Shown in pieces: positions 1 to 57,440 of a DNA stretch of 64,000 nucleotides. The stretch's first letter is position 1. Each line of letters opens with the position of its first letter. The notes below the pieces were generated by a model. The model was not told where the DNA came from and did not search any database. It saw only the letters and a list, made by a program, of their open reading frames with translations. This stretch comes from Neobacillus mesonae (lineage in GTDB: Bacteria > Bacillota > Bacilli > Bacillales > Cytobacillaceae): assembly GCF_001636315.1 (NCBI RefSeq), contig NZ_KV440949.1, positions 3,094,973 through 3,158,972 on the forward strand. The letters are read 5' to 3'. A program made the translations under genes and the position numbers.

Positions 1-237
1 ATCCAATTTAGAGATCAAGTAGAAGCCCTCTAGTTGCTGTCTAAAGCCAAAAATCCAATTTAGAGATCAATTAGAAGTGCCCTAGCTGCTGTCTAAAGTC
101 AAAAATCCAATTTAGAGGTCAAGTAGAAGCCCTCTAGCTGCTGTCTAAAGTCAAAAATTCGATTTAGAGATCAAGTAGAAGCCCTCTAGCTGCTGTCTAA
201 AGTTAAAAATCCAAATCAGAGGCCAAGTAGAACCCCC
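1..237. repeat. 52-bp tandem repeat array A (about 4.5 units, cut by window edge)
   Basis: Units begin at 1, 53, 105, 157 and 209, exactly 52 bp apart; the last is degenerate and fades before the stop codon of the neighbouring gene. Each unit holds the inverted pair TCTAAA / TTTAGA separated by 13 bases. The array probably continues upstream of the window. It has the same period as four other arrays here but a different sequence. I see no coding potential and no transposase. Confidence 0.9.
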
Positions 238-11974: not shown

Positions 11975-12573
11975 AAAACATCGCAATTTTTGCATCAGGA
12001 AGCGGCAGTAATTTTCAGGCGATTGTCGATGCTGTTCAAGCCGGACTTCTTAACGCGAATATTTCCTTGCTTGTTTGCGATCAGCCAGGGGCTTATGTGA
12101 TTGAACGGGCAAGAGCAGCCAATATCCCTTCATATATATTTCGTGCCAAGGACTATCCAAGCAAGGAGGATTTCGAAAACGAAATTTCCCTTTTGCTAAA
12201 AAACCGCAACGTGGAGTGGATTGTACTGGCGGGCTATATGCGTCTGATTGGGCCGACGCTCTTGAAGCAGTATGAGGGTCGGATCATCAATATCCATCCT
12301 TCGCTGTTGCCGGATTTTCCTGGTAAAGATGCGATTGGTCAGGCGATTGCCGCTAGAGCACAATGGAGCGGCGTGACGATCCATTACGTGGATGAAGGTA
12401 TGGATACGGGGCCGATCATTGCTCAGGAACGCACAAGGCTGGAAGAAGACGAGACAAGAGAAAGCCTGCAGCGGAAGATTCAAGCAATTGAACATAAACT
12501 ATACCCATCGATTCTGCAAATGCTGCTAACAATAGGAGATGTTAAACATGACGAAAAAACGGGCGCTTATTAG
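11971..12573 (+). CDS. purN: Phosphoribosylglycinamide formyltransferase
   Basis: A 200-residue enzyme transferring the formyl group of 10-formyl-THF to [18 protein letters not shown] is the phosphate-binding start, and [13 protein letters not shown] carries the catalytic Asn and His with [13 protein letters not shown] following. The ATG overlaps the purM stop. The last 26 bp overlap purH. Confidence 0.96.
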
Positions 12574-14086
12574 TGTTTCAGACAAAAATGGAGTTGGGGA
12601 ATTTGCCAAGGAGCTTGCGGGCCTTGGTTTTGAAATTATTTCGACTGGCGGAACAAAAAAAATGCTTCAAGAACTAGGAATCCCGGTTCTTGGTGTAAGT
12701 GATGTGACTGGCTTCCCGGAAATTCTTGAGGGCCGCGTTAAAACATTAAATCCGTTTATCCATGGCGGATTACTCGCAAAACATGATGATGAAGGCCATC
12801 AAAAACAGCTTGAGGAGCACAGCATTGAGCCGATTCAGCTAGTTTGTGTCAACCTTTATCCGTTCCAGCAAACGATTGAAAAGCCGGATGTAACGGTAGC
12901 GGATGCGATTGAAAACATTGATATCGGTGGTCCAACTATGCTTCGTGCTTCAGCGAAGAACCACCAGTATGTGACAGTGGTTGTAGACCCAGTTGATTAT
13001 GCGACAATTCTTGACGAGCTGAAGGCTGACGGTGAAACAACGCTTGAGACGCGGAGAAAGCTTGCGGCAAAGGTCTTCCGCCACACTGCTGCATATGACG
13101 CGCTAATTGCGGAATACATGACCGACCTTGCCGGAGAAGAAAATCCTGAAAAATTAACCGTTACTTACGAATTGAAACAGACTCTTCGTTACGGAGAAAA
13201 CCCACATCAACAGGCTGCTTTTTACCGTAAGCCCCTCGGATCTGCGTTCTCAATCGCCTATGCCGAGCAGCTCCACGGAAAAGAGCTGTCCTATAATAAT
13301 ATCAATGATGCCGATGCGGCCCTGCAGATTGTAAAAGAATTCGCGGAGCCCGCAGCGGTTGCGGTAAAACACATGAATCCATGTGGTGTCGGTACAGGAA
13401 ACACTATTTTTGAAGCTTTTGAAAAAGCATTTGCAGCTGACCCGGTATCAATTTTTGGCGGCATTATCGCTTTAAACCGTGAAGTGGATGCGGTAACCGC
13501 AGGGAAGCTTCATGAAATTTTCTTAGAAATTATCATTGCACCGTCCTTCACTAATGAAGCGGTTGAAATTTTAACAGCGAAAAAGAATTTACGTTTATTA
13601 ACCATTCCGTTTGATCAGGAGCAAAAGCCGGAAGCTAAGATGGTGACAATTGAAGGCGGACTGCTTGTTCAAGACCGTGATAGCTATACTTTAGAGGATG
13701 CGGAGATCACAATCCCAACGAAGAGACAGCCGACTCCGGAAGAGTGGGAAGCATTAAAGCTTGGCTGGAAGGTTGTGAAGCATGTCAAATCAAACGCCAT
13801 CGTTGTTTCAGATAAGGACATGACACTTGGGATTGGTGCAGGCCAGATGAATCGTGTCGGTTCTGCGGAAATTGCCCTTAAACAGGCTGGTGCCAAAGCG
13901 GAGGGTGCCGCACTCGCCTCTGATGCCTTCTTCCCTATGAACGACACTGTGGAAGCAGCGGCAAAAGCCGGCATCACAGCGATTATTCAACCAGGCGGCT
14001 CTATCAAGGATGCTGATTCCATTAAAAAAGCAGATGAATATGGCATTGCTATGGTGTTTACTGGGGTAAGACATTTTAAACATTAA
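12548..14086 (+). CDS. purH: Bifunctional AICAR transformylase / IMP cyclohydrolase
   Basis: A 512-residue enzyme catalysing the last two steps to IMP. The N-terminal cyclohydrolase half starts [16 protein letters not shown] and includes STGGTKKML. The C-terminal transformylase half has [23 protein letters not shown] (catalytic Lys-His) and [13 protein letters not shown] chose ATG 12548 over 12539, since AGGAG sits too close to 12539 and 12548 gives the family length. It is followed not by purD but by 690 bp of non-coding repeats. Confidence 0.96.
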
Positions 14087-14145
14087 TTTTTAAGGCGGCG
14101 CTAAAACGGCAGGTTCACGGCGATTCGCTAATAGCACTTCGAACA

Positions 14146-14670
14146 GCGCCGATATACGCGACCGAACGGCAGAAAAAAAGAGCCCCCCGGTCGCCTATAA
14201 GGTGTATACGCGACCGAACGGAAGAAAAAGAATCCCCATCGGTCGCCTATAAGGTGTATACGCGACCGAACGGGAGCCAAAAAGAGTCCCTCGGTCGCCT
14301 ATAAGGCGTATACGCGACCGAACGGGAGCCAAAAAGAGTCCCTCGGTCGCCTATAAGGCGTATACGCCACCGAACGGAAGCCAAAAGGAGCCTTCCGGTC
14401 GCCTATAAGGCGTATACGTGACCGAACGGGAGCCAAAAAGAGCCCTCCGGTCGCATATAACTCGTATACGCGACCGAGCGGCAGAAAAAAAGCGCTCCCC
14501 GGTCGCATATAAGGTGTATACGCGACCGAACGGGAGCCAAAAAGAGCCCTCCGGTCGCCTATAAGGCGTATACGCGACCGAGCGGCAGAAAAAAAGCGCT
14601 CCCCGGTCGCCTATAAGGCGTATACGTGACCGAACGGCAGAAAAAAAGAGAGCCAAAGTCGCCTATAGGG
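14146..14670 (+). repeat. 52-bp hairpin repeat array B inside the pur operon (10 units)
   Basis: The core CGACCGA recurs at 14159, 14211, 14263, 14315, 14367, 14419, 14471, 14523, 14575 and 14627, every 52 bp without a single slip. Between cores lies CGGTCGC - TATA - AGGCG - TATA - GCGACCG, a near-perfect 29-bp inverted repeat with a 5-base loop; base changes are scattered. It fills almost all of the purH-purD gap. There is no coding capacity: the readable frames on the minus strand are only repeats of the unit. Confidence 0.95.
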
Positions 14671-14735
14671 ATTAGAAGGTTAGATTCGCCTAATAACCCC
14701 CTTGAAGTCACTAATAAAACATGAAAATTCGTTAA

Positions 14736-16046
<1,311 letters not shown>

Positions 16047-16079
16047 TGTTCATAAATTCGCGGATAACACTTTAGAGCA

Positions 16080-16114
16080 AAAATCGGGCTCGAGATTAAC
16101 GAGCCCGATTTTTT
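16080..16114. terminator. Bidirectional terminator after purD
   Basis: AATCGGGCTCG and CGAGCCCGATT form an 11-bp stem followed by TTTT, ending the pur operon. The minus strand reads into the same stem at the end of the small opposite gene, which has its stop codon in the loop. Confidence 0.9.
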
Positions 16115-16206
16115 GAACGGCGCCTAAATGCGAAAAAAAGAGCAATAATGCCGCCAATCAAGATAATATAAACAAATGCCGAATGAACGAACCAATTGCT
16201 AAGCAT
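16096..16206 (-). CDS. 36-residue single-pass small membrane protein
   Basis: Reading the minus strand from ATG at 16206 gives a 36-residue peptide: NWFVHSAFVYIILIGGIIAL forms one transmembrane helix and FRRRSKNRAR a basic cytosolic tail, following the positive-inside rule. AAGGAAG lies about 10 bases before the start. It resembles the very small membrane proteins often found beside purD in bacilli, but the usual EYxxD motif is absent, so I give no name. The stop codon lies in the loop of the purD terminator. Confidence 0.6.
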   Translation of the reverse strand: MLSNWFVHSAFVYIILIGGIIALFFAFRRRSKNRAR

Positions 16207-16233
16207 CTGTTATCGACTTCCTTTCTATTAAGA

Positions 16234-16400
16234 CTGTCCCGTTAGTGAGATGGTGAACTTTATGAGAACAGAGTACCCCGGTTTTAAGTCTTTAAAGTTC
16301 TCATCAACACTTTATGAGAACAAAACGTCCCGATTTTAAGCCTATACTGTCCTCATATAGCTTTAGAGACAGAGCAAAAACCCTATTCAGTCCTCATCCC
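16234..16400. repeat. 52-bp repeat array E (about 3 units)
   Basis: TATGAGAACA starts at 16261 and again at 16313, 52 bp apart, with a degenerate third copy near 16365 and a partial one before 16261. Within each unit GTTCTCAT and ATGAGAAC form an 8-bp inverted repeat around a 9-base loop. It ends just before the stop codon of the adjacent minus-strand gene. Confidence 0.75.
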
Positions 16401-16405
16401 CCGCG

Positions 16406-16723
16406 TCAGGTCGGATTATGCGCTTCAACCTCATCATTCAGCCCTTCCATTCCATCCATAGACGAATATTCGGAAGAACCCCCGGCCGTAGAACCACATT
16501 TCTTCAACGGCTCCATAACCGGACATTTTTCATACATTGCCGTTAGCGGGCAATAGCGGACGATTCCTTCAGCCACTTTCATCGCCCCGCAGATCGCAAC
16601 AAGTAAGTATGACTCCCGCCAAGGACGTTTCACCAATTTTGCCGTACACCATGCAAGAATAGTTAACCCGGCAGTGATTCGAATTAACGCGTTTAAAATA
16701 CCAATATTCGGTTTCACATTCAT
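16406..16723 (-). CDS. DUF2892 / YgaP-type small membrane protein
   Basis: A 105-residue protein with two transmembrane segments around IRITAGLTILAWCTAKLV and SYLLVAICGAMKVAEGIV, followed by VRYCPLTAMYEKCPV. This is the DUF2892 layout, which in YgaP-like proteins is fused to rhodanese domains and includes paired cysteines. The C-terminal tail after residue 75 is low in complexity and acidic. I chose the ATG at 16723 because GAAGGAG lies 8 bases upstream; the GTG at 16732 overlaps it. Function unknown. Confidence 0.75.
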   Translation of the reverse strand: MNVKPNIGILNALIRITAGLTILAWCTAKLVKRPWRESYLLVAICGAMKVAEGIVRYCPLTAMYEKCPVMEPLKKCGSTAGGSSEYSSMDGMEGLNDEVEAHNPT

Positions 16724-16886
16724 GATGCTCACTCCTTCACAAAATATTTACATTAATTATCAATTCTTTACTGCTTTAAACTAGAAAATATGATAGTATA
16801 GTAATTAAGTATCCTTTGTAAGGGTTTTCTTACTGATAAAACCAATGTTTATATATAGATTTTTTTTTGCTGAGGGGGGACTTCGT

Positions 16887-18632
16887 ATGATTGAACAACG
16901 CTACCGTTGGAAAAATAAACATTTACGGACGCATGTTTCTGTTTTAGATGGGGAAACGTCACCCACTATACTTTTGAAAAATGCCACTTATTTGAACCAA
17001 ACGTTTCGGAAATGGATGAAAGCAAATATTTGGATTTACCAAGATCGCATTGTGTATGTTGGTGACAATTTACCATCACACATAAAAAATTGTGAAATAA
17101 TTGATTGTACGGGTCAAATACTTGTACCGGGCTATATTGAACCGCATGCTCATCCGTTTCAACTTTATAATCCCCATACGCTGGCGGAATATGCATCCCA
17201 GTTCGGAACAACCACAATCATTAGTGATAACATGCCTCTTGTATTAAATTTCAAGAAAAGGGAAGCGTTTTCATTGCTGAGGGATCTTCGGAACATTCCA
17301 ACCACAATGTTCTGGTGGTGCCGCTTCGATTCGCAAACGGAAATTTTGCATGAAGAAGAGACATTTTCACATAGTAATATTAAATCTTGGCTCGAACATG
17401 ATGCCGTTCTTCAAGGCGGGGAGTTAACAGGATGGCCGAAGCTGCTGGATGGCGATGATATGATGCTTCATTGGATTCAAGAGGCAAAAAGAATGCGGAA
17501 GCAGATAGAAGGCCATTTTCCGGGAGCTTCCGAAAAAACACTGGCCAAAATGATGCTGCTTGGGGCGGATAGTGACCATGAAGCCATTAACGGCGAAGAG
17601 GTATACAACCGCTTAATGCAAGGATATATGGTGTCATTGCGGCATTCGTCCATCCGGCCTGATCTTCCCAAGCTGTTAGATGATATGAAACGGTTAGGCA
17701 TCGATGCATATGACCGCATGATGTTAAATACCGATGGTGCTACTTCACCTTTTTATGAACAGGGTATTACCGACATGTTAATTCGAATCGCGATTGAAAA
17801 GGGCATTCCAGTCATTGATGCCTATAACATGGCGACGGTAAATATCTCCAGGTACTACAACATCGACCATCTACATGGTAATATTGCCACGGGCCGAGTT
17901 GCGAATATTAACTTCTTGGAAAGTAAGGAAAATCCGACACCTGTGTCTGTATTAGCAAAAGGGAAATGGGTAAAGCGTGACGGAGCGAAGGTTGAAGGTG
18001 TCTATCCTTCAATGGATTGGAGTGAATATGGTCTTAAACCATTAGAATTGAATTGGCATTTAACGATGGATGATTTACAATTTTCTATGCCGTTCGGAAT
18101 TAAAATGGAGAACTCTGTTATTACCAAACCATATTCACTTTCAATTGATATTTCTGGTGATGAACTGGAGATGACACATGATGAGAGCTTTTTCACTTTA
18201 ATTGACCGCCAAGGAAAGTGGCGCATTAACACATTATTAAAGGGATTTGCATCAAAATTGCATGCCTTAGCAAGCTCATTTTCCAATACTGGAGATATTA
18301 TTTTAATTGGGAAAAACAAACAAGACATGCTTACTGCTTTTAATAGAATGAAAGAATTGGGCGGAGGAATTGTGCTGGTCGAGAATGGCGAAATTGTTTG
18401 TGAACTTCCGCTGCCTTTAGGAGGGATTATGTCAGGTCTTCCTATTGAAGAACTGATGATTGCGGAAAAAACCCTTTTCGCTGAATTGAAAAAACGGGGC
18501 TATGACTTTAATGACCCGATTTACAGTTTGCTATTCTTTTCTTCGACACATTTGCCTTACATTCGGGTAACACAGCAGGGCATGTACGATGTAATGAACA
18601 AAACAGTTCTCTTTCCGACTATAATGCGTTAA
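16887..18632 (+). CDS. yerA: YerA, adenine deaminase-like amidohydrolase
   Basis: A 581-residue amidohydrolase-superfamily protein. PGYIEPHAHPF carries the HxH metal ligands, the DGDDMM and GADSDHEAI segments line the active site, and LNTDGATSP contains the catalytic Asp region. The C-terminal part matches the adenine deaminase fold, with GGGIVLVENGEIVCELPLPLGGIMSG close to its end. The activity of YerA itself is not firmly known. The start ATG follows GAGGGGGGA; an earlier in-frame start at 16845 lacks one. It begins the yerA-yerB-yerC block, as in B. subtilis. Confidence 0.85.
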   Translation: MIEQRYRWKNKHLRTHVSVLDGETSPTILLKNATYLNQTFRKWMKANIWIYQDRIVYVGDNLPSHIKNCEIIDCTGQILVPGYIEPHAHPFQLYNPHTLAEYASQFGTTTIISDNMPLVLNFKKREAFSLLRDLRNIPTTMFWWCRFDSQTEILHEEETFSHSNIKSWLEHDAVLQGGELTGWPKLLDGDDMMLHWIQEAKRMRKQIEGHFPGASEKTLAKMMLLGADSDHEAINGEEVYNRLMQGYMVSLRHSSIRPDLPKLLDDMKRLGIDAYDRMMLNTDGATSPFYEQGITDMLIRIAIEKGIPVIDAYNMATVNISRYYNIDHLHGNIATGRVANINFLESKENPTPVSVLAKGKWVKRDGAKVEGVYPSMDWSEYGLKPLELNWHLTMDDLQFSMPFGIKMENSVITKPYSLSIDISGDELEMTHDESFFTLIDRQGKWRINTLLKGFASKLHALASSFSNTGDIILIGKNKQDMLTAFNRMKELGGGIVLVENGEIVCELPLPLGGIMSGLPIEELMIAEKTLFAELKKRGYDFNDPIYSLLFFSSTHLPYIRVTQQGMYDVMNKTVLFPTIMR

Positions 18633-20113: not shown

Positions 20114-20230
20114 TTGCAGATATAATTAAAAAACTGCAGATATAATGCCCAGAATTGCAGATATATTGTAAAAACTGCAGATATACAGTCTAAACCCGCA
20201 GATATCTCCCAAAAACCCGCAGATATTTGG
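20114..20230. repeat. Short 20-21-bp periodic array (TGCAGATAT)
   Basis: GCAGATAT recurs at 20116, 20136, 20157, 20177, 20198 and 20219, spacing 20, 21, 20, 21, 21 bp. The bases between copies vary. It fills the 296-bp yerC-pcrB gap together with the yerC terminator and a pcrB leader. Confidence 0.8.
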
Positions 20231-42255: not shown

Positions 42256-42348
42256 ATTTCGCGGAATTTCAGTTTTATTTCGCGGGTTTTTGAAATGATT
42301 TCGCGGATTTTCAAAATAATTTCGCCGACTTCCACCATGATTTCGCGA
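42256..42348. repeat. Exact 21-bp periodic array of ATTTCGCGG
   Basis: ATTTCGCGG or a one-base variant (ATTTCGCCG, ATTTCGCGA) starts at 42256, 42277, 42298, 42319 and 42340, always 21 bp apart, with unrelated 12-bp spacers. It lies in the 348-bp gap before aceB, whose promoter (TATAAT-like at 42481) is further on. Confidence 0.85.
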
Positions 42349-47785: not shown

Positions 47786-48311
47786 GTCGCGTTTTAAGTA
47801 CTATAGGCGACCGAGGAGCGAGAAAAAAAGTGAGCAGGGTAGCGTATAAGGGCTATAGGCGACCGAGGGGCGAGAAAAAAAGTGAGGAGGGTAGCGTATA
47901 AGGACTATAGGCGACCGAGAGGGGAGAAAAGAAGTGAGGAGGGTAGCGTATGAGGGCTATAGGCGACCGAGGGGCGAGAAAAAAAGTGAGGAGGGTAGCG
48001 TATAAGGACTATAGGCGACCGAGAGGGGAGAAAAGAAGTGAGGAGGGTAGCGTATGAGGGCTATAGGCGACCGAGAGGGGAGAAAAAAAGTGAGGAGGGT
48101 AGCGTATAAGGGCTATAGGCGACCGAGAGGCGAGAAAAAGAGCCAGCAGGGTAGCGTATAAGGACTATAGGCGACCGAGAGGCGAGAAAAAGAGCCAGCA
48201 GAGTCGCGTATAAGGACTATAGGCGACCGAGAGACGAGAAAAAGAGCCAGCAGAGTCGCATATAAGGACTATAAGCGACCGGGAAGAGCCAAAAACAGCC
48301 CGCCCGTCGCC
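47786..48311. repeat. 52-bp hairpin repeat array C (10 units, related to array B)
   Basis: GCGACCGA-type cores recur at 47808, 47860, 47912, 47964, 48016, 48068, 48120, 48172, 48224 and 48276, every 52 bp. The unit GTCGC - TATA - AGGAC - TATA - GCGAC has the same plan and much of the same sequence as array B, 33 kb away. It occupies the gap between two convergent genes (yueI and the lysozyme-like gene). No terminator or gene is visible inside. Confidence 0.95.
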
Positions 48312-56805: not shown

Positions 56806-56851
56806 GCTGGGATTTGGATGAAGGACAAAATTGGCTGTGTGCCATGTGAAA

Positions 56852-57440
56852 ATGTCCTTCATAAGCGGTATGAAGGCCAAAAAAGGCTGTGGCTGGAGAG
56901 AAAATGGTCTTCATAAGCGGAATGAAGGCCAAAAAAGGTTGTGGCTCGAGTGAAAATGGTCTTCATAAGCGGAATGAAGGCCAAAATCGGTTGTGGCTGG
57001 AGAGAAAATGGTCTTCATAGGCTGAATGAAGGCCAAAATTAGTTGTGGCTGGAGAGAAAATGGTCTTCATAAGTGGAATGAAGGCCAAAAAAGGCTGTGA
57101 CTCGAGTGAAAATGGTCTTCATAAGCGGAATGAAGACCAAAAAAGGCTGTGGCACGAGTGGAAATGGTCTTCATAAGCGGAATGAAGACCAAAAAAGGCT
57201 GTGGCACGAGTGGAAATGGTCTTCATAAGCGGAATGAAGACCAAAAACGGTTGTGGCTGGGGAGAAAATGGTCTTCACAAGCGGAATGAAGACCAAAAAA
57301 GGCTGTGACACGAGAGAAATGGTCTTCATAAGCGGAATGAAGACCAAAAACGGTTGTGGGGCCATCTCACAATGTCCTTCTTAACCAAGATAAAAGACAA
57401 AATTGCTCCAAAACCAAGCAAAATGTCTTTCATTAATGCT
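56852..57440. repeat. 52-bp hairpin repeat array D (about 11-12 units)
   Basis: CTTCATAAGCGG-type motifs start at 56857, 56909, 56961, 57013, 57065, 57117, 57169, 57221 and 57273 (exact 52-bp steps), then 57324 and two decayed units. Many units have the perfect inverted repeat TGGTCTTCAT / ATGAAGACCA around a 7-base loop. It lies between the thioredoxin-like gene and plsY. Confidence 0.95.

Follow-up and report, generated by a model that had tools for sequence, protein, structure and literature searches.

A tandem array before purD in Neobacillus mesonae belongs to a class of intergenic 52-bp repeats that occurs genome-wide and has a common dyad layout

A tandem array of 52-bp units lies between purH and purD in the pur operon of Neobacillus mesonae, within a window of 64,000 nucleotides (the whole stretch of DNA analysed; NCBI RefSeq assembly GCF_001636315.1, contig NZ_KV440949.1, positions 3,094,973 to 3,158,972). 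Its position raises the question of whether it is a device that acts on purD. An earlier note on this DNA had read it in that way, as an element that reduces or insulates purD expression, with a weak promoter candidate at 14728–14756.

The array in the purH–purD gap

The gap between purH and the GTG start of purD at 14769 was found to be 682 bp long (14087–14768), not 691 bp as first described. Tandem Repeats Finder (TRF) placed the array at 14153–14650, with a period of 52, 9.6 copies, 86 % matches and 0 % indels. Identity at lag 52 over 104 positions reached 0.94, whereas 2000 shuffled versions of the gap did not exceed 0.46, confirming that the ten-unit array is real. With its terminal half-dyad the array extends to 14667 and occupies about 515 bp of the 682 bp; the earlier description of a gap made of ten 52-bp units thus holds for the units and not for the entire gap. 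The main features of the locus are as follows.

12539..14086, + strand: purH (NCBIfam model)
14122..14134, + strand: degenerate unit like the 21-bp class, left of the array (by reading; no independent TRF hit)
14153..14667, + strand: 52-bp array, with nine complete dyads and ten spacers between a right half-dyad and a left one
14189..14215, no strand assigned: first complete 27-bp dyad, GGTCGCCTATA-aggtg-TATACGCGACC; the rest start every 52 bp, to 14605–14631
14216..14240, + strand: first 25-bp spacer flanked by complete dyads; its centre is A-rich
14683..14740, + strand: to the right of the array, three degenerate units similar to the 21-bp class (by reading; no independent TRF hit)
14769..16046, + strand: purD, GTG start (NCBIfam model)

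In its dyad register the array comprises nine complete 27-bp dyads between 14189 and 14631 and ten spacers, bounded by a right half-dyad at 14153–14163 and a left half-dyad at 14657–14667. Each of the nine dyads has 9–10 of its 11 arm pairs in Watson–Crick form, and the spacers are 67 % purine on the + strand, which is here both the sense and the leading strand. The array is non-coding, and a coding repeat was rejected on the grounds that 52 is not divisible by three. The remaining pur genes are compact save ahead of purC, where the ORF list leaves about 107 bp, as had been noted; the names purE, purN, purH and purD are backed by NCBIfam models and the other pur names are those of the first reading. 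Upstream of the operon lies a purine riboswitch (2419–2520; Rfam), the sole match at the gathering score in the whole window, with none at the array.

A promoter consensus scan of 13900–16900 returned four promoter-like sites, none of them in the gap, with 3.8 expected by shuffling, and the promoter candidate at 14728–14756 was absent from its results. A terminator scan of the same region returned two terminator-like sites, both within purD and none in the gap, with 3.8 expected. The combination of a GC-rich hairpin and an immediate T run was unmatched in the gap, so the pur array is not an array of intrinsic terminators.

The gap was then compared among relatives, a check that the earlier note had itself proposed. 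The closest congener found, G065, has 84–87 % DNA identity over the pur flanks, and its matches to window positions 13300–14133 and 14727–15600 abut with an 11-bp overlap; since these flank matches lie side by side, there is nothing array-like between them. The next closest congeners, G029, G069 and G068, have 52, 68 and 166 bp between the matched flanks. All 58 congeners that carry the two genes together on a contig lack the array, judging by the distance between matched flanks, read by eye, of −14 to 390 bp (a 59th, G067, was left out, its genes being on different contigs). Nine of these gaps exceed 100 bp, the longest being the 390 bp of G078, and none leaves room for the array, as judged by length. 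Among named genomes, the closest PurD is that of N. kokaensis (93 %), whose purH–purD gap is 78 bp. The view that the array was inserted within the operon is therefore upheld, and a lineage-specific insertion after the split from the closest congener is the parsimonious history.

About four degenerate units resembling the 21-bp class described below flank the pur array, and N. kokaensis has one (by reading). Given these units beside it, the pur array seems to be surrounded by the remains of an array of 21-bp units. In other genera, 21-, 25- or 42-bp repeats occupy the same gap (L039, L041, L050, L063 and L071), and the purH–purD gap thus accepts different repeat types in different genera. Repeats of 15 bp with GGGACAG/CCCC words were also seen in the purH–purD gap of two Lederbergia (L072 3951–3980 and L076 3943–3973).

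A genome-wide class with a 27 + 25 bp dyad layout

To place the pur array in its genome, the window and 80 spaced 20-kb stretches were sampled, covering 1.664 Mb of 5.8 Mb. This sample held 39 arrays of period 52 (36 arrays) or 53 (three), with units that differ between arrays, and proportional extrapolation gives about 136 arrays of 52/53 bp per genome. The next commonest unit was 21 bp (21 arrays), followed by 42 bp (three), and other periods from 26 to 104 occurred once or twice each. Five arrays of exactly 52-bp period lie in the window, and the four besides the pur copy had been missed in the first reading.

1..236, no strand assigned: 52-bp array truncated at the window edge, its dyad weak
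16257..16356, no strand assigned: two-copy 52-bp repeat after purD, in a convergent region (TRF)
47795..48281, no strand assigned: 52-bp array in a convergent region, common to congener G065 and about 249 bp longer there
56818..57359, no strand assigned: 52-bp array in a convergent region before plsY

The array at 47795, with its longer matched stretch in G065, indicates that positions of the class are partly conserved. Arrays were sparser elsewhere, with seven in 380 kb of ten congeners and one in 300 kb of other families. The pur array thus belongs to a class of intergenic 52-bp arrays spread through the genome, and because 39 like arrays occur in 1.664 Mb, five of them in the window, it is no purD-specific device. 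Arrays of 53-bp period were seen at L018 7385–8351, L185 12207–12636, L205 12745–13442 and L031 1412–1726; five helical turns at 10.5 bp come to 52.5 bp.

The class itself is known. Subirana & Messeguer (PMC8161180) surveyed 176 Bacillus genomes, whose 4029 tandem repeats included 1886 arrays of 51–53 nt and 781 of 20–21 nt, and described the 52-nt repeats as constant in size, variable in sequence and of unknown function, proposing nucleoid proteins or small RNAs. The pur array belongs to this class: its period of 52, 9.6 copies and 0 % indels agree with the published 51–53 nt, four or more repeats and regular length. The Neobacillus arrays likewise share its period of 51–53, several families per genome, at least four units, non-coding location, patchy distribution across species, partly conserved positions and a companion class of 20–21 nt. 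The authors of PMC8161180 noted short signals and their reverse inside one repeat, and gave no sequence conservation and no placement relative to genes or replication. In contrast, we find a 27 + 25 bp dyad layout, purine-rich spacers on the leading strand, enrichment in convergent regions and an insertion in the pur operon that is absent from relatives. The layout is new with respect to PMC8161180 and the accessible part of PMC8625621; a 2020 J Bacteriol paper on the class may already describe part of it, and among the papers listed as citing this repeat work no title treats the layout.

When the arrays were registered on their best dyad, the unit resolved into a 27-bp dyad (arms of about 11 and a centre of about 5) and a 25-bp spacer. 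In this comparison the pur-array dyad is GGTCGCCTATA-aggcg-TATACGCGACC, and those of other arrays include GGTCACGTAGA-acctc-TCTACGTGACC and TGTCCTTCATA-agttg-GATGAAGGACA, among more. Arrays of period 52 with a dyad score of 0.6 or more, 48 of the 57, supplied 27 mutually dissimilar representatives. Their outer arm bases tend to KGTC/GACM, exactly so on both sides in nine representatives and on at least one side in 14, and their inner arm bases tend to AKA/TMT. Arm positions 5–8 hold all four bases yet are Watson–Crick paired in 22, 21, 23 and 26 of the 27, compared with 8.1, 8.2, 7.8 and 8.4 when arms were re-dealt (maximum 18 in 1000 shuffles); the register was the best of 52 centres, a choice that biases pairing upward. 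No marked pairing excess over re-dealing was found at position 4 (15 versus 12.4) or positions 11–13 (17, 10 and 9 versus 14.9, 8.9 and 8.6).

Per-array shuffle tests for any short-loop hairpin gave p ≤ 0.05 in 26 of 46 arrays. Among the 27 published consensus units (PMC8161180, Table 1), which are independent of the discovery of the layout, 14 contained such a dyad (p < 0.05 by shuffling) and the other 13 did not fit. Together these results show that the 'variable' 52-bp units have a common 27 + 25 bp dyad layout. A reading of the spacer as an inner hairpin, made by eye, proved not to be general and was dropped. One family of arms was observed to carry a repeated asymmetric mismatch, GGTA opposite GCCC rather than GGTC/GACC, in either orientation and in several genomes (L127 18577, L042 5509, L148 888, L205 12745 and L143 1437).

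The strict motif KGTCN4AKAN5TMTN4GACM had at least three hits in 23 of 199 Bacillales genomes, compared with one of 199 for the reversed control. Counts reached 225 per genome, and 144 of the 199 genomes had none. The motif-rich genomes, G000, G056, G124 and G174 among them, span 13 family labels (f1, f2, f6, f7, f9, f11, f14, f17, f20, f22, f29, f37 and f42). Among the matches listed, many neighbours lie 52 bp apart (a spacing seen rather than counted), and isolated hits occur among those listed in some other genomes; one array from another family, L157, fits the layout. As a search pattern, the motif recovers some members of the class outside this genome.

Integron attC sites vary in arm sequence while keeping complementarity, and their orientation relative to replication matters. 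The 52-bp dyads resemble them in these respects and differ in that the arrays are without gene cassettes. CRISPR arrays have unique spacers between identical repeats. They are similar in combining a palindromic repeat and a spacer of like lengths, a comparison also drawn in PMC8161180, whereas the spacers of the 52-bp arrays are near-identical, repeat with the unit and belong to 39 arrays in 1.664 Mb.

The companion 21-bp class was seen at window positions 20115–20205 and 42256–42347, at L010 3057–3176 and at L123 5085–5341. Its units have a conserved core of about 10 bases (TTCGC[GC]GA, TTCGCTAATA, GGCGGAATAA and GACGGGTAAA) and a loose remainder. Some of these cores are similar to half-arms from dyads of the 52-bp arrays (GTCGCCTATA and GGTAAAA), so the two classes may share recognition logic. 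In the 80 stretches of the same genome (L005–L024, L135–L154 and L172–L211), 15 arrays of the 21-bp class lie in the half nearer dnaA and two in the farther half.

Gene context and strand polarity

The placement of 35 of the 39 arrays was determined relative to genes called by a crude in-house script: 17 were in convergent, 15 in co-directional and three in divergent regions. Intergenic regions of at least 60 bp, taken as the baseline, comprised 124 convergent, 598 co-directional and 180 divergent. Arrays therefore favour convergent intergenic regions (convergent versus rest, odds ratio 6.7, p = 4e-7), with no difference between divergent and co-directional (p = 0.78). In genome G022, five of ten period-52 arrays were convergent, a count without a baseline. 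Location in an ori-proximal macrodomain was rejected: in G000, 25 arrays were nearer dnaA and nine farther (p = 0.08 by stretch), and in G022 the spread was even. Ori-proximity, which is expected of some nucleoid roles, is thus not significant.

GC skew changes sign beside dnaA (2.642 Mb) and near 5.2 Mb. On the strand of positive skew, purines exceeded half of the spacer in 45 arrays out of 57 and fell below half in 11. The mean purine fraction of spacers on the leading strand was 0.643, compared with 0.511 for intergenic 25-mers, and none of 10000 resamples was as high; this null came from the own genome alone, 18 of the 57 arrays come from relatives and the arrays are not all independent. 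Nine of 12 further G022 arrays agree with this polarity.

Spacers of co-directional arrays are also purine-rich in sense orientation in 17 of 24 cases. The two influences part in four co-directional arrays whose genes oppose the skew, and in all four the polarity follows the skew, two of them sitting at weak skew (0.021 and 0.035). Spacer polarity thus apparently follows replication rather than transcription, and it may amount to a stronger version of the bias that leading strands show in general.

AGCGG is the Chi sequence of B. subtilis. It was present on the leading strand of 14 of the 39 own arrays (8.4 expected; 33 occurrences in total), and its complement in none of the 39 (5.7 expected). 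It was rejected as a general feature, being present in none of 12 G022 arrays. The SpoIIIE-type motif GAGAAGGG was found in none of the 39 own arrays (0.4 expected).

Candidate explanations for the class

Our preferred reading, held tentatively and rated somewhat below an even chance, is that these are DNA-level dyad arrays whose dyads are docked by a factor or form cruciforms, with the pur copy passively transcribed. Under it, a unit of 27-bp dyad and 25-bp spacer would set dyads about every five helical turns on one face of the DNA, a helical reading of which the literature on the 21-nt class already gives a hint. A DNA-binding factor, either dimeric or able to recognise structure, would dock at the dyads, or the dyads would extrude as small cruciforms, and the setting would be the supercoil-prone 3′ ends of genes and convergent regions. 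The purine-rich spacer would give each array a polarity set by the replication fork. The class would act as DNA and not as RNA, and the pur copy, having probably entered the purH–purD gap after the split from the closest congener, would simply be transcribed through.

A broader form of this reading posits one Bacillales element with the grammar KGTC-N4-AKA-n5-TMT-N4-GACM and a 25-bp leading-strand-purine spacer, whose dyad structure a putative factor would read irrespective of variable-arm sequence, and which would serve the chromosome at the 3′ ends of genes in an orientation set by replication; we regard this as doubtful. A reader of fixed sequence needs no co-varying positions, so recognition of structure, or several specificities, must be assumed. 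In 864 kb of the own genome outside arrays, there were four dyads with at least 9 of 11 arm pairs (1.2 expected), and so few isolated good dyads would be odd for ordinary binding sites.

That scarcity of solo copies is also what would be seen if the arrays were neutral or selfish minisatellites, a strong rival that we consider a serious possibility without expecting it to be correct. Hairpin-prone units would amplify and shrink by replication slippage, template switching would keep the dyads matched, and the arrays would persist without function at harmless gene ends. The presence or absence of the array at the pur site and the length difference at 47795 between close species fit such a process, as do the avoidance of most coding sequence, the enrichment where no promoter is needed, the replication-linked polarity of the spacers and the partial conservation of 52-nt repeats between B. 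coagulans strains (PMC8161180). Among 48 arrays used for an array-end test, ends fell at the dyad centre somewhat more often than by chance (17 of 47 on the left and 17 of 46 on the right, about eight expected for each; Rayleigh p = 0.0007 and 0.08). The stricter claim that arrays end exactly at the dyad centre looked strong at first and weakened in this formal test. Minisatellite behaviour alone, however, leaves unexplained why unrelated units have 27 + 25 bp and outer KGTC/GACM in common across 13 bacterial family labels, and why only 52 and 21 bp are common as lengths.

An RNA-level role, in which rows of hairpins in 3′ untranslated regions stabilise the upstream mRNA or separate purD mRNA from the upstream message, is unlikely in our estimation. 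It would agree with the gene-end location, with the purine-rich sense orientation of co-directional spacers (17 of 24) and with the presence of 52-nt repeats in B. coagulans RNA-seq data (PMC8161180 and the accessible part of PMC8625621). The sense RNA of the gap also folds better than shuffles (z = −7.3), but the antisense strand folds better still (z = −9.4). If RNA hairpins were selected, imperfect pairs should be G.U over A.C on the transcribed strand. In 56 of 63 period-52 arrays, the sense orientation had 27 G.U versus 18 A.C distinct states (p = 0.23), or 41 versus 50 by cells, and the leading orientation had 58 versus 57 states, with no G.T excess for a single-strand hairpin. There is thus no significant G.U/A.C asymmetry marking RNA-level selection; polarity that tracks replication in all four discordant arrays and a gap without a terminator also stand against an RNA element.

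The same evidence bears on purD. The pur copy has 38 counterparts in the 1.664 Mb sampled, and 15 of the 35 placed arrays are co-directional. It contains no promoter- or terminator-like match, it folds better in antisense, and the spacer polarity of the class follows replication where replication and transcription disagree. A purD-centred reading is therefore not supported, and a primary role as a purine-operon regulator was rejected for a class that is genome-wide and without promoter or terminator matches; an incidental effect of the array on purD mRNA may occur. The lesson of the pur operon is one of caution, in that a conspicuous array before a gene need not regulate that gene. The parts worth following are the dyad layout and the replication polarity, with a bound factor, cruciforms or a mutational process as candidate causes, and enigmatic repeats of constant length and no common sequence thereby gain a layout and polarity that can be tested.

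REP/BIME elements (GTAG and CGTC families; PMC3733652 in its accessible part) are likewise extragenic palindromes, often clustered, and the outer GTC of the 52-bp dyads resembles the REP CGTC tag by letters. REP tags are unpaired (same source), whereas the outer KGTC pairs with GACM, and 52-bp copies are unlike REP in forming exact arrays with few dispersed dyads and no supported link to a Y1 transposase. A REP-like mobile palindrome spread on single-stranded hairpins by a Y1 (RAYT-type) transposase is very improbable: three Y1_Tnp genes in the genome, a replication-oriented polarity and Y1_Tnp in 22 of 23 motif-rich genomes versus 137 of 176 others (p = 0.052) favour it, but Y1_Tnp is widespread in any case (159 of 199 genomes), G144 combines 29 motif hits with the lack of any Y1_Tnp match, tandem arrays are absent from the three Y1 loci of 3.3 kb, and no unpaired tag is evident. 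RAYT-driven spread was rejected on this basis, the association being weak rather than zero. Two of the three own Y1_Tnp genes (L169–L171) are intact and RAYT-sized (253 and 218 aa), and one carries a stop.
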